Part shown: one piece after another, positions 15,544 through 28,215 of the stretch
Position numbering within the stretch: position 1 is the first letter of the stretch
Layout: every line of letters starts with the position of its first letter
Source of the DNA: an uncultured bacterium
GTDB lineage: Bacteria > Planctomycetota > Phycisphaerae > Phycisphaerales > SM1A02
Length of the DNA: 36,556 nucleotides
NCBI GenBank assembly: GCA_903898755.1
Contig: CAIUGT010000128.1
Span: forward strand, 1-36,556
Direction: 5' to 3'
Notes under the pieces: generated by a model
What the model was told of the DNA's origin: nothing
Seen by the model: only the letters and a program-made list of their open reading frames with translations
The model's database searches: none
Program-made: the position numbers and the translations under genes

Positions 15544-16128
15544 GTGGAATTCGTAACATTTGAAGAAGCGTGGAGTCTGCTTCGCCGCCTTGGCGTAAAC
15601 AAGGTGACGGACGCTCCGAATGAAATGCGATTTGAATTGGCTGACTCGCCCAGCGTTGTGGTGCTTGATGTCGCCGCCAACGATCACGTTGATATCAAGT
15701 CGCTGCCAAAAGAAATGCGCCGCGTTCCGCGCAACGCCATTGCGAACTTCGTTGAGGCGCTGGTGCACAAGATGCACCTGCAACGCACGTATGTGATTCC
15801 AATTGGAAAGTGGCGCCAGATTTTTGAAGCCGTCAGCCACGGCATGGTCAGCAACGCCGCGTGGCGTGGCGTGGACACATCCGCCAGCGTGGAGTTGAAC
15901 ACGCGCGACCCGCTGCAATTTAATTTGGCAGACGCGCACACCTTGCGCGATTTAATCAAAGTGATTTTGCGCGATGGCCGCGGAATTGAGCATGGAATTA
16001 CGCTGTGCAGCGATGGCGCGCCATTGGTGATTGAAGTCATGCCCGCGGGCGAAATGATTATTTTCGCGGGGCGGCCAGACTTGGCCAAGCAGTGCGAAGA
16101 ATTGCTGGCGCACGCCAAAGCGGACTGA
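15544..16128 (+). CDS. Hypothetical protein (about 194 aa)
   Basis: I do not recognise this family. The protein has 194 residues, mixed alpha/beta, with no signal peptide, no membrane segment and no cysteine cluster. The N-terminal third begins with an aromatic, acidic segment (EFVTFEEAWSLLRRLGV) followed by a beta-rich stretch. The middle has a helix rich in Arg/Asn and a GKWRQIFEAVSHGM segment. The C-terminus has a hydrophobic strand and AGRPDLAKQCEELLAHAK. The start is GTG, with a stop codon 21 nt further up in frame, so the N-terminus cannot extend much. It is divergent from the LMW phosphatase gene and convergent with the zinc-ribbon membrane protein. Codon use matches its neighbours, so it is probably real. 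Confidence 0.7.
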   Translation: MEFVTFEEAWSLLRRLGVNKVTDAPNEMRFELADSPSVVVLDVAANDHVDIKSLPKEMRRVPRNAIANFVEALVHKMHLQRTYVIPIGKWRQIFEAVSHGMVSNAAWRGVDTSASVELNTRDPLQFNLADAHTLRDLIKVILRDGRGIEHGITLCSDGAPLVIEVMPAGEMIIFAGRPDLAKQCEELLAHAKAD

Positions 16129-16192: not shown

Positions 16193-16579
16193 TTACTCCA
16201 CGACAATCAATTTTGCGTTCACGTCGGGCGTTTCCATGTCGATCGCGTCTTGCGAAAGTTGCGTGCCATCAAACTCAAAGCGCACGCCGCAACCAAGACA
16301 TTGATAGGCCGCGACATTTTTCTGAATAGGACCCATTCGACACGCCGGACAACGATTCCTTTTCAACGCGCGTCGCGTCAAGATGCCTTCGATGCCGCTT
16401 AAAGTTTCGCCAAAGAAAACAACGAACGCCAAACTCAACACGCTTCCAATGATGAGCACCAAGGCGCCCAATGGAAAAGTAAAAACACAGATAAATGCCA
16501 GCGCGAAAGCCGCCATGTAGCCAGCCAAAACCAAAAATGGATAGGCGCGGTTCAGGGATCGCAAGATGCGCAGAATCAT
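16193..16579 (-). CDS. Small membrane protein with C-terminal zinc ribbon
   Basis: A 128-residue protein of unknown function. The N-terminal half has two hydrophobic segments at about residues 14-35 and 38-58, consistent with a helical hairpin in the membrane. After a basic linker (RRALKRNR) comes a zinc-ribbon pattern CPAC-x(14)-CLGC (the second pair in AAYQCLGCGVRF), which is compact and complete. The tail is acidic. Such ribbon proteins can bind nucleic acid or protein partners; no more specific role can be read. The ATG at 16579 has TACGAT exactly 6 nt upstream. It is divergent from dnaN across about 120 bp that carry a large inverted repeat. Confidence 0.75.
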   Translation of the reverse strand: MILRILRSLNRAYPFLVLAGYMAAFALAFICVFTFPLGALVLIIGSVLSLAFVVFFGETLSGIEGILTRRALKRNRCPACRMGPIQKNVAAYQCLGCGVRFEFDGTQLSQDAIDMETPDVNAKLIVVE

Positions 16580-16585
16580 GAGCCA

Positions 16586-16591
16586 ATCGTA
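16586..16591 (-). promoter_or_regulatory. Putative -10 box (TACGAT), leaderless zinc-ribbon protein gene
   Basis: TACGAT on the minus strand ends 6 nt before the ATG at 16579. Confidence 0.5.
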
Positions 16592-16634
16592 GAGAAGTGA
16601 GACCCGCCAGTCGAGCGCTATGCGAGCCGTTGCC

Positions 16635-16678
16635 AGCCCAACCTAAATTTTTCTGTTGGTTACACTTTAGGTTGGGCT
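16635..16678. repeat. 13-bp perfect inverted repeat at the dnaN promoter
   Basis: AGCCCAACCTAAA (16635-16647) and its exact complement TTTAGGTTGGGCT (16666-16678) are separated by 18 bp. The spacer contains TTGGTTACAC and the right arm begins with the last T of TACACT, a candidate -10 box of dnaN. It could be an operator for a dimeric repressor flanking the promoter, or a hairpin if transcribed from further upstream. Confidence 0.7.
16661..16666 (+). promoter_or_regulatory. Candidate -10 box (TACACT) of dnaN
   Basis: TACACT lies inside the inverted repeat, 36 nt before the ATG at 16703. The same 11-nt string TTGGTTACACT recurs upstream of rpsP (27720-27730), where a matching -35 exists. Here no good -35 is seen 16-18 nt upstream. 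Confidence 0.4.
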
Positions 16679-16702
16679 ATTCCAGCCCGTGGAACACTTC
16701 TT

Positions 16703-17824
16703 ATGGCTGACCAAATGAAATTGATTTGCGACCGTGCCGCCTTTGTTGAAGCTGTGCAGATTGCCGCCGCCGTTGTTGCGACGCGTGGAAATGTGCCCGC
16801 TCTGCTTTGCATCAAGTTGACGGCGAAAGACAATCGTTTATACCTGCAAGCCGCCGACAAGGACATTGCGCTTGAAATTCCAGTGGCCAGCGTGGACGTG
16901 AAATCCCCAGGCGAGGCCCTTGTGCCGGCCGAGCGCTTGTCGCAAATCGCGCGCGAATGCGCGGGCACAACGTTGGCGTTTGAATCCAACAAATCTATTT
17001 TGTCCATCAAAGCCGATGGCATGCGCTTTAATGTCAACGGCTACGACCCGAAAGAATTTCCAGCGCCGCCGCAGTTGAATTCAAATCCTGAATGCACCGT
17101 CAGCGCCGCGACATTTCGCAAACTGGTTGGTCGAACTATTTTCGCGACCGCGGTTGAAAATAATCGCTACGCCATTGGCGGCGTGTTGATTGAACGCGTG
17201 GGCAAGCGCTTGCGCCTGGTGGGAACCGACGGTCGCCGTTTGGCTGTGGCCAAGGGCGATTGCATTTCAGCAACCGAAACCGATTCATCCGTGATTGTGC
17301 CTACAAAGGCGCTGAATTTACTCAACCGCTTGGCGATTGATCCAGAAGATCCAATCGAAATTTCAAAGGCGGACGGTCGCCTTGTGTTCACCATTGGCAG
17401 CGGCGCCGACGCCGCGAAGATGGTGACCAGTTTGATCGAGGGAACATTCCCGCCGTTTGATGATGTGATTCCCAAGGAACATGATCGCCGCGTGACATGC
17501 AATGTCGCGGCGCTGACCGCGGCCGTGCGTCGATCAAGTTTGTTGACCAGCGAACAAAGCAAAGGCGTGAAGATGAGTTTCACCGCCACGCAGTTGACGC
17601 TCTCAAGCAGTTCACCCGATGTTGGCGATTCCGAAATCACAATGCCACTGGAAGGTTTCCAAGGCGAGCCAATCGAAGTTGGTTTCAACCCTGGCTACAT
17701 TGTGGACGCGCTTAAAATTATCGACGCACCGGAAGTCATCATAGAGTTGAAAGCCACCAACAAGCCTGGTGTGCTTCGCATTGGCCAAGAGTTCACGTAT
17801 GTCATCATGCCACTGAATGTTTGA
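16703..17824 (+). CDS. dnaN: DNA polymerase III beta subunit (sliding clamp)
   Basis: Ring-forming processivity clamp that tethers replicative and repair polymerases to DNA. It has 373 residues, the usual length. Three clamp repeats are recognisable. The first starts with MKLICDRAAFVEAVQIAA. The central one includes KLVGRTIFATAVENNRYAIGGVL and the peptide-binding region LVGTDGRRLAV. The third includes LTAAVRRSSLLTSEQSKGV. The C-terminus ends with the typical VIMPLNV. The start could be 16703 or the in-frame ATG at 16715, which matches the usual MK- beginning; there is no Shine-Dalgarno to decide. dnaA and recF are not adjacent, so this is not the classical dnaA-dnaN locus. A terminator follows. 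Confidence 0.97.
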   Translation: MADQMKLICDRAAFVEAVQIAAAVVATRGNVPALLCIKLTAKDNRLYLQAADKDIALEIPVASVDVKSPGEALVPAERLSQIARECAGTTLAFESNKSILSIKADGMRFNVNGYDPKEFPAPPQLNSNPECTVSAATFRKLVGRTIFATAVENNRYAIGGVLIERVGKRLRLVGTDGRRLAVAKGDCISATETDSSVIVPTKALNLLNRLAIDPEDPIEISKADGRLVFTIGSGADAAKMVTSLIEGTFPPFDDVIPKEHDRRVTCNVAALTAAVRRSSLLTSEQSKGVKMSFTATQLTLSSSSPDVGDSEITMPLEGFQGEPIEVGFNPGYIVDALKIIDAPEVIIELKATNKPGVLRIGQEFTYVIMPLNV

Positions 17825-17846
17825 TTTCTGTTTCAAGCAAAAATAA

Positions 17847-17883
17847 AAGAAGCCCGACCGCAAGGCCGGGCTTCTTCTTTTTT
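17847..17883. terminator. Bidirectional intrinsic terminator between dnaN and redoxin gene
   Basis: AAGAAGCCCGACC, loop GCAA, GGCCGGGCTTCTT gives a 13-bp stem with one mismatch and a tetraloop, followed by CTTTTTT on the plus strand. The preceding AAAATAAAA gives a T-rich run on the minus strand, so it can end both convergent transcripts. Confidence 0.92.
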
Positions 17884-17903
17884 ACAATGAAATCAGCGGC
17901 AAA

Positions 17904-18693: not shown

Positions 18694-19617
18694 TTAGGGT
18701 TGAGAAGCCTTGATGTTCAATGGAAGGCGAATCATTTCGCAACGATCGCTGTTTGATTGGCCGAACAAAAGCAACCCTTTGAATACAATTGGCTTGCCCA
18801 GCGCATTGTGCGGCTGAATTTCTATTGGAATGTTGAGCGATATTTTTCCTTCGGACACGGCCGCTTGAAATGGCCCGGCGGACTTGAGTGACGCGCCGGG
18901 CATGACATCGGGAATAAATTGCGCCGTAGTTGTGGCCATGCTTTTCGACGCGGCGCTGGAAGTGCTGCCAGAAATTGTGATGGTTTGATCTTTGGAATTG
19001 AACGTTGCCGTTGCGCCCACAGTGGGAAACGAGCGCCCAAGCCGCACGTCACCCGCCGCAGGAATTTCACCAGTTGCCGCCGCAAATTCCAAGTGCGCTC
19101 GACCAATTTCACAGTGATCTTTGCAAGTCATCCATGAAAGATCGAGCGAACACGCCGGCGCGGTGACGCCCGCTGGTCCCTGAATAGGCAAGAGCCATTC
19201 CCAGGAAGTGTCATAGATAAATTCCGTGTCGTCGACGGTTTTTAGAATGGAGGGCCGCGGAAAAATAGGCTCCGACAATGTCCATGCATCTTTGGCGCGC
19301 AGTTGCGCGAGTGGCGGCGCACCGCTTTCGCCAGGATTTTCCCAGTACATGTGCCAACCATTTGCAATTTCAAAACGCACAACCGCCGCGGTTTGGCCGT
19401 TGGCAAGTTTCACCCACCCCGCCGCTGTGGCCTTCACTGGAGTCTTGTCATTGACCACTTCAGCGGTTGCGGAGTTGAGCGCGGCCTCGGGCTTGAAACT
19501 TGGCGCTGCGGGAATTGTTTGTGTGGCTGCCACGGCGGGCTTGAAATTTAAAAAAACTTGAGAAGCGGCGCCAAGCATGCACACGGTCAACATTAGAAAT
19601 CGAAAGCGAATGATCAT
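18694..19617 (-). CDS. Exported DsbD N-terminal (alpha)-domain-like protein
   Basis: A 307-residue periplasmic protein related to the N-terminal immunoglobulin-like domain of the disulfide reductase DsbD (PF11412 type), without the membrane and thioredoxin domains. A signal peptide covers about 1-31 (hydrophobic core FLMLTVCMLGAASQVFL). Family landmarks are VRFEIANGWHMYWENPGESG, LPRPSILKT-like FPRPSILKTV, and the cysteine region LSWMTCKDHCEIG, which carries the candidate redox pair CxxxC. The C-terminal third is a beta-rich domain. The start at 19617 is chosen; the open frame runs 104 codons further, but that region lacks coding character, crosses the divergent rhodanese gene and would bury the signal peptide. 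TATGCT lies 8 nt upstream. The redoxin gene follows. Confidence 0.82.
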   Translation of the reverse strand: MIIRFRFLMLTVCMLGAASQVFLNFKPAVAATQTIPAAPSFKPEAALNSATAEVVNDKTPVKATAAGWVKLANGQTAAVVRFEIANGWHMYWENPGESGAPPLAQLRAKDAWTLSEPIFPRPSILKTVDDTEFIYDTSWEWLLPIQGPAGVTAPACSLDLSWMTCKDHCEIGRAHLEFAAATGEIPAAGDVRLGRSFPTVGATATFNSKDQTITISGSTSSAASKSMATTTAQFIPDVMPGASLKSAGPFQAAVSEGKISLNIPIEIQPHNALGKPIVFKGLLLFGQSNSDRCEMIRLPLNIKASQP

Positions 19618-19696
19618 TGAATGAAAGCATAGACATGCCGCGGCAAATTTTACACAACTTTCAAAGGGCACGAGAAGTGAAAATGTATTTTCGCAG

Positions 19697-19725
19697 TTGC
19701 CTAGCGCGCCAAATGCGGTGACAAT
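19697..19725 (+). promoter_or_regulatory. Promoter TTGCCT-17-GACAAT, leaderless rhodanese-like gene
   Basis: TTGCCT (19697-19702) and GACAAT (19720-19725) are separated by 17 bp, and the -10 ends 6 nt before the ATG at 19732. It is one of the few leaderless candidates here with a reasonable -35. Confidence 0.55.
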
Positions 19726-19731
19726 GAAATC

Positions 19732-20196
19732 ATGAGAACCCTTGCCACTGTTTGCATTGCGATTTTGGCGGCCACCGCGTGCACAAAAAGCACCAGCGAT
19801 AAAAATATCACCTATGTGACGCCGTTTAAGGCGGTTGAACTTATGAATGATCCCGGCAGCATGCTCAAGCGCGCGCCCGTCAGCGTGTGGGTTGATCCGC
19901 GCAGTCCAGAAAAATACGCCGAGGGACATATTCCTGGCGCGATTAATTTGCCGTTCCCGCGCATGACGGCGGAGGCGGGTCTTGTGCTTGGCAAGTACGA
20001 CCAGTTTGTTGTGTACGACACTTCATACGACGACACCATTGCCAAAGCGGCAAGCAAGCGCCTTATTGAACTTGACTTCAGCGATGTCTACACGCTTGAA
20101 GGCGGTCTGAAGGCGTGGACGCGCGATGGTAATCCGCTTGAAACTGGATTTCCTGCGCCGCCAAGCGCGCCAGCGAAAGCACCCGCTCCGCAATAA
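19732..20196 (+). CDS. Rhodanese-like lipoprotein lacking the catalytic cysteine
   Basis: A 154-residue lipoprotein: signal peptide with lipobox LAATAC, Cys17 being the predicted lipidation site. One rhodanese domain covers about residues 30-140, with VDPRSPEKYAEGHIPGAINLP (split around HIPGAINLP) and the C-terminal YTLEGGLKAWTRDGNPLE. The position of the sulfur-carrying Cys in the motif VVYC is Asp here (FVVYDTSYDDT), and the usual CxxGxRS loop is absent, so sulfur transfer is unlikely. It may be a binding or regulatory module. The C-terminus is Pro/Ala-rich. It is divergent from the DsbD-alpha-like gene with 114 bp between start codons, suggesting a common envelope redox context. Confidence 0.85.
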   Translation: MRTLATVCIAILAATACTKSTSDKNITYVTPFKAVELMNDPGSMLKRAPVSVWVDPRSPEKYAEGHIPGAINLPFPRMTAEAGLVLGKYDQFVVYDTSYDDTIAKAASKRLIELDFSDVYTLEGGLKAWTRDGNPLETGFPAPPSAPAKAPAPQ

Positions 20197-27701: not shown

Positions 27702-27730
27702 TTGGCGTGAAATGAAACTTTGGTTACACT
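27702..27730 (+). promoter_or_regulatory. Promoter TTGGCG-17-TACACT of the rpsP operon
   Basis: TTGGCG (27702-27707) and TACACT (27725-27730) are separated by 17 bp, upstream of rpsP and downstream of the M50 gene. It predicts a leader of about 120 nt. Confidence 0.65.
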
Positions 27731-27807
27731 CGTCGATTCGCACCTGCCCACCGTTATGGCGGCACGGCGAGCTGAAAAGCCCGCCCCACCGACATACGGA
27801 ACTGACA

Positions 27808-27826
27808 AGTTGATCGCTGATCAACT
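27808..27826 (+). promoter_or_regulatory. Hairpin in the rpsP leader
   Basis: AGTTGATC, loop GCT, GATCAACT is a perfect 8-bp stem, 32 nt before the rpsP start and just upstream of the purine-rich GAGGAGG (27833-27839). It could control access to the ribosome site, for example by autoregulation. Confidence 0.45.
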
Positions 27827-27858
27827 GGTTCCGAGGAGGCGGCTGATGGAGAACTCAC

Positions 27859-28215
27859 GTGGTCGTATTACGTTTCAAGCGTTTCGGAAGAATTCATCGT
27901 CCAACATATCGATTGTGCGCCGCTGACAAGCGCTGCCCTCGCAACGGAACGGTGATTGAGGAACTCGGCTGGTTCGATCCAGCCGGCCCTGAAGGCAAAC
28001 AATTTGAATTCAACATGGAGCGCGTGGCGCATTGGTTCAAGATGGGCGCGCAGCCATCTCAAACCGCAGCCAACATGATCAAGAAAGCTGGCGGAACAAT
28101 TCCGGCGGCCGCGATCAAGGCGCTCTCCGTGCGCAGCAAAGTTTCGAAACATCCAAAGCCAGCCGTGGTTGCAACACCAGCGGCTGCCGCAGAGGAGACC
28201 CCGAAGGGCGAGTAA
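27859..28215 (+). CDS. rpsP: 30S ribosomal protein S16
   Basis: Small-subunit assembly protein, 118 residues: an S16 core of about 80 with a C-terminal Ala/Pro-rich extension. The core shows VVLRFKRFGRIHRPTYRL, AADKRCPRNGTVIEELGWFDP and MERVAHWFKMGAQPS, all S16 signatures. The start is GTG, with GGAG 7 nt upstream; GAGGAGG further up may also help. It is the first gene of an rpsP-trmD-rplS operon; in many bacteria ffh and rimM are part of the same cluster and both are missing here. An overlapping out-of-frame ORF covers the start region, discussed separately. Confidence 0.95.
   Translation: MVVLRFKRFGRIHRPTYRLCAADKRCPRNGTVIEELGWFDPAGPEGKQFEFNMERVAHWFKMGAQPSQTAANMIKKAGGTIPAAAIKALSVRSKVSKHPKPAVVATPAAAAEETPKGE

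Follow-up and report, generated by a model that had tools for sequence, protein, structure and literature searches.

Stem-loops located at the very 5' end of an mRNA reportedly act as stabilisers in E. coli, where those of the ompA/papA type are said to have been described by Emory, Bouvet and Belasco in 1992. Operators of dimeric repressors can lie over a -10 element. According to PMC3997798, single-stranded 5' ends are needed by both RppH and RNase E, and mRNA is stabilised by 5' structures. Template-switch mutation associated with quasipalindromes, including homogenisation of the arms, is a known process (PMC8604942; see also PMC7202029); according to the former, template switching favours repeats with shorter spacers. 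The search of the open-access literature revealed no account of a dnaN leader hairpin or of an inverted repeat that controls dnaN in Planctomycetes.

The locus compared with these systems here is situated in the window, i.e. the whole stretch of 36,556 nt that was analysed, and comprises the following features:

16193..16579, minus strand: divergent ORF of 128 aa, the nearest ORF upstream of dnaN, without a Pfam match
16635..16647, plus strand: left arm of the perfect inverted repeat, AGCCCAACCTAAA, in the -35 region and upstream of the predicted start
16661..16666, plus strand: TACACT, very likely the -10 element of the dnaN promoter judging from its conservation, found in 15/15 genus loci and 59/93 order-level loci
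16666..16678, plus strand: right arm of the perfect inverted repeat, TTTAGGTTGGGCT, the GTTGGGCT end of which is invariant in 9/9 close genomes
16673..16674, plus strand: predicted transcription start, 7th to 8th nucleotide past the -10, deduced by reading GTTACACT-N6-ATG sites as leaderless
16674..16688, plus strand: predicted 5'-terminal mRNA hairpin GGGCU-AUUCC-AGCCC, a conserved fold with compensatory changes in six more distant genus members
16703..17824, plus strand: dnaN, encoding the DNA polymerase III beta clamp (Pfam PF00712, PF02767 and PF02768)

The assignment of the downstream gene as dnaN in the preliminary description agrees with all three Pfam domains. Like the ompA/papA stabilisers, the dnaN hairpin lies right at the predicted 5' end, leaving 0–1 unpaired nucleotides, in a genome encoding RNase E/G; unlike them, it belongs to dnaN, is found in Planctomycetota and has a stem of only 5–8 bp, and its 5' end is predicted from sequence. 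The repeat arms resemble operators of dimeric repressors in their two-fold symmetry about the -10, but differ in being single copy, imperfect in relatives and without a candidate regulator. As in a quasipalindrome template switch, the relatives have an imperfect repeat and a single lineage a perfect one, and the changes concentrate in the arms; in contrast to a single switch, both arms are changed, and the spacer has 18 nt, whereas shorter ones are favoured according to PMC8604942. The locus is probably best described as a dnaN core promoter followed by an ompA-like stabilising hairpin at the 5' terminus of the mRNA, with the perfect repeat as a lineage-specific by-product.

For the comparison, 16 genomes of the window's genus were used, 15 of which contain dnaN. 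In the eight closest relatives the DnaN protein is 91–98% identical and the promoters align gap-free. The order-level set comprised 96 genomes with a dnaN match, from which three with partial or split genes (G018, G093 and G047) were dropped, resulting in 93 upstream regions. The dyad-centre and hairpin scans cover the 59 of these 93 that have TACACT. One overview alignment of the genus dnaN loci covers 8 of the 15, with seven close ones left out. A three-gene tree groups the window with G015 (support 100) and then with G003 (92), while deeper supports are 50–79 and several genomes are partial. The tree based on dnaN only, which leaves out the loci L013 and L016, does not resolve the close genomes (supports 53–63). 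The queried stretch is present in the sister genome G015 for its first 34 bases only, and the dnaN promoter of this genome is therefore missing from the comparison.

The repeat was found as initially described: AGCCCAACCTAAA and TTTAGGTTGGGCT, read directly from the sequence, are complementary at 13/13 positions and are separated by 18 nt. No other perfect inverted repeat with arms of 13 bp or more and a spacer of 3–60 nt exists in the whole window. Copies generated with a second-order Markov model contained on average 0.12 such repeats, and 42 of 400 copies held at least one. The occurrence of the repeat in the window is thus unusual, not extreme, and scaling arithmetic from the Markov copies leads to several chance repeats of this quality being expected genome-wide. 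Since about a tenth of the copies match it, rarity by itself is no proof of function. In the 2.59-Mb assembly, exact copies of the arm core GCCCAACCTAAA are carried by the two arms only. With up to two mismatches on both strands, 150 matches were obtained in the genome, compared to 459 for the reversed control. A repeat family or regulon was rejected on the basis of the single-copy arm core and of two-mismatch matches fewer than in the control. Many copies acting as a plain genome-wide repeat, which the preliminary description had named as counter-evidence, were not seen, the arm core being absent outside the two arms. The 11-nt string TTGGTTACACT does recur at 27720-27730, as had been noticed, and the gene behind this copy is rpsP (S16 by Pfam). 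Five copies of the string are present in the genome, compared to three for the reversed control. The distance from the rpsP promoter copy (region 27720-27860) to the S16 ORF, approximately 128 nt, is longer than at most other sites.

The candidate -10 TACACT was originally placed between the arms. The element itself is conserved; the right arm begins with its final T, and the -10 is thus not entirely located within the spacer. In the nine close genomes, TGGTTACACT and GTTGGGCTATTC are invariant (9/9). A scan with the E. coli consensus gave no -35 element and no -35/-10 pair. In the window's genome GTTACACT is rare, with 19 sites compared to 237 for the reversed control. At six of the 19 sites an ATG follows after exactly 6 nt, which suggests leaderless mRNAs. 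At three of these six (L150, L152 and L161) the ATG is internal to a longer open frame, and its use as start codon is therefore an assumption. GTTACACT is found 6 nt ahead of genes for a succinyl-CoA-ligase-type ATP-grasp protein and an AAA-kinase-like protein, 12 nt ahead of that for an EF-Tu-type GTPase and 36 nt ahead of that for ribosomal protein S12; product names beyond the Pfam domain are the analyst's reading. We infer from this spacing that TACACT is the -10 of the lineage, with transcription starting at the 7th nucleotide after it and many mRNAs being leaderless. According to a published survey (PMC5397173), low Shine-Dalgarno use in Planctomycetes, based on one species, is tied to leaderless or S1 signals. 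In this genus, where the dnaN mRNA would have a structured 5' end, several further genes with this -10 look leaderless.

A hairpin at the predicted +1, beginning approximately at the 8th nucleotide after the -10, was found in 15/15 genus dnaN loci, and GGGCU-AUUCC-AGCCC appears in the computed RNA fold of the window's leader. Hairpin scores of at least 9 were reached in 8/9 close genomes and in 6/6 more distant genus members, where shuffles led to expected numbers of 0.3 and 0.53, respectively; the remaining close genome has a 4-bp stem and a score of 8. In the nine close genomes 97.8% of the cells are paired and the hairpin is almost invariant, so that covariation is uninformative among them; none was detected (500/500 shuffles). 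The six more distant members have other letters at the same place (GCGGC or GCGGCC, GCGGCGA and GAGGCTG, each with matching partners). Here, among five distinct rows, three of seven pairs are altered on both sides (a value reached by 13/500 shuffles); the score for covariation is 0.343 in the true register (3/500 shuffles) and at most 0.086 in slid registers. After addition of L022, a locus of another genus (G032) picked because the hairpin fits, five of seven pairs are altered (0/500 shuffles). By these sequence comparisons, it is the structure of the hairpin, not its letters, that is conserved in the genus. Beyond the genus, a +1 hairpin with a score of at least 9 is present in only 5 of 44 TACACT leaders (1.45 expected), and among the 19 genomic GTTACACT sites only two reach this score, dnaN being one of them. 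The minimum-energy folds of the distant leaders L012 and L014 do not contain the hairpin, while the centroid of L014 does. Folding z-scores of whole leaders are unremarkable (window -1.05). Rfam covariance models gave no match up to E 1 within 16400-16800, and a known RNA family was rejected for this region.

If TACACT serves as the -10 and transcription proceeds from 16673/16674, 7th to 8th nucleotide after it, the dnaN mRNA would open directly with GGGCU-AUUCC-AGCCC. The hairpin would then leave 0–1 unpaired nucleotides at the 5' end, mask this end from 5'-end-dependent decay of the RppH/RNase E type and thereby prolong the lifetime of the dnaN message. A member of the RNase E/G family is encoded in 13/16 genus genomes, including that of the window. 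RNase J (TIGR00649) was found in none of the 16 at the cut-off, with weak partial matches below it in 15/16. Given 5'-end sensing by RppH and RNase E and the presence of RNase E/G in the genus, the most likely role of the hairpin, by analogy, is to slow the 5'-end-dependent decay of dnaN mRNA. The right arm would be conserved because it holds the start of this hairpin. If this is true, a replication gene of Planctomycetota would carry an element that protects its mRNA at the 5' end, and a striking lineage-private palindrome would be replaced by a conserved and testable structured 5' end on the dnaN mRNA.

The 13-bp perfect repeat, on the other hand, is probably not the functional unit, its left arm fully matching the right one in the window's genome only. 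The perfect form is perhaps a lineage-specific by-product, generated by template-switch homogenisation of an older imperfect repeat. The ancestral promoter would have contained an imperfect repeat with about 7 of 13 pairs, which was perfected in the window's lineage, plausibly via a template switch between the arms. The tree places the window among genomes with 5–8 of 13 pairs, while the outgroup G014 has nine. Between the window and G003, 10 of 26 arm columns differ (seven in the left and three in the right arm), compared to three of the 54 remaining columns. With an equal number of random changes, 11/13 pairs were reached from G003 with P 3.5e-5, and from any of the eight relatives P ranged from 3e-5 to 1.9e-4, in a test that shares its ascertainment with the finding of the repeat. 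The clustering of changes in the arms, toward pairing, suggests that an older imperfect repeat was homogenised, either by template switching or by selection for symmetry. Since both arms are changed, a single template switch does not account for all changes. The perfect inverted repeat of one genome can thus mislead before relatives are compared.

The preliminary description had proposed a dimeric regulator that binds the 13-bp arms and closes the dnaN promoter, and had named lack of conservation upstream of orthologous dnaN genes as counter-evidence. None of the dnaN promoters of the eight closest relatives has perfect arms (0/8; 5–9 of 13 positions pair), and the core-arm pattern with a spacer of 10–40 nt was matched by the window's genome alone among 101 genomes searched. 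As the perfect repeat is lacking in these relatives and the core pattern in the 100 other genomes, a conserved operator is not supported. Moreover, the lack of a second exact arm-core copy in the genome gives no sign of an operator regulon. An operator on which a dimeric regulator, bound to arms straddling the -10, shuts the promoter, and which originated from an old degenerate dyad that became perfect in the window's lineage, is rather unlikely. What sustains it is a weaker dyad on the same axis in the close relatives, which leaves a weak operator reading at the sequence level. The centre of this dyad, 4.5 nt ahead of the -10, ranks 1–2 of 80 in six of the nine close genomes and 6–8 in the other three. 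With the structure in all dyad tests being defined from the window itself, 65.0% of the cells are paired in the nine close genomes (reached by 9/500 shuffles; no more than 40.2% in slid registers), four dyad pairs are changed on both sides (13/500 shuffles) and total pairing is 70, with an average of 65.3 after permutation (2.0% of permutations; 6/120 in a five-genome subset). Furthermore, G014 retains 9/13 pairs with the inner ACCGGAA/TTCCGGT. When the window, in which the repeat was noticed, is excluded, however, 12% of permutations reach the observed pairing. For all nine genomes, the covariation score of 0.107 barely exceeds the 0.105 obtained after sliding the register by -2. The centre ranks 38/80 in the six distant genus members and 73/80 in 44 other loci; a dyad conserved order-wide was rejected on the latter rank. 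In view of the hardly raised covariation, the 12% obtained without the window and an axis that is unremarkable beyond nine genomes, the operator is kept as a minor rival. Interpretation of the perfect repeat as a by-product must invoke shared ancestry for the axis ranks of 1–8 of 80 in the nine close genomes. Both functions might be combined in a fast-evolving operator of a dimeric clamp-gene regulator, the downstream half of which doubles as the 5' strand of the protective hairpin; we regard this as improbable. Repressor binding and message stability would in that case share the same letters.

A chance 13-bp inverted repeat, spotted because the whole window was scanned for such things, is unlikely. 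It would be in line with the equal repeats in 42/400 shuffled windows and with the lacking conservation of the perfect form in relatives, but the arm columns have changed far more than their neighbours, and toward pairing, albeit in the test with shared ascertainment.

An intrinsic terminator, or a 44-nt RNA hairpin formed by both arms in the dnaN leader, is highly improbable: the hairpin is stable as RNA (-18.8 kcal/mol, z -4.23, 0/200 shuffles), as is expected of any perfect repeat, but no T run is found past either arm on either strand. Transcription of dnaN is predicted to start within the right arm, and the ORF next upstream is divergent; read-through might come from an ORF on the plus strand that ends at 16128. 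An intrinsic terminator at the repeat was rejected on the lack of a T run directly after the stem; the terminator scan, which did not list the repeat, covers loops of 3–8 nt, a range outside which the 18-nt loop lies. As the left arm is located upstream of the predicted start, the 44-nt hairpin is unlikely in the dnaN mRNA. Of the alternative suggestion in the preliminary description, that the element is an RNA hairpin, the form built from both arms is therefore unlikely, while a shorter one that includes the end of the right arm is conserved.

Several observations concern the surroundings of dnaN. In five of the six more distant genus members (L012-L016), the stop of a mini-ORF, ATGGCAGRCAGGC..., overlaps the dnaN ATG (ATGA), and this overlap aligns with the dnaN start of the window itself. 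It possibly reflects translational coupling or a start shift. The sixth distant member (L017) has ATT in place of the dnaN ATG. Downstream, a terminator-like hairpin with A/T runs on either side is located at 17831-17892, between the convergent dnaN and redoxin genes, and is probably a bidirectional terminator. Comparable hairpins adjoin the 3' end of dnaN in relatives. In several members of the genus, the N-terminal part of the DsbD-N protein (18694-19929) gives a match of its own, often containing stops.
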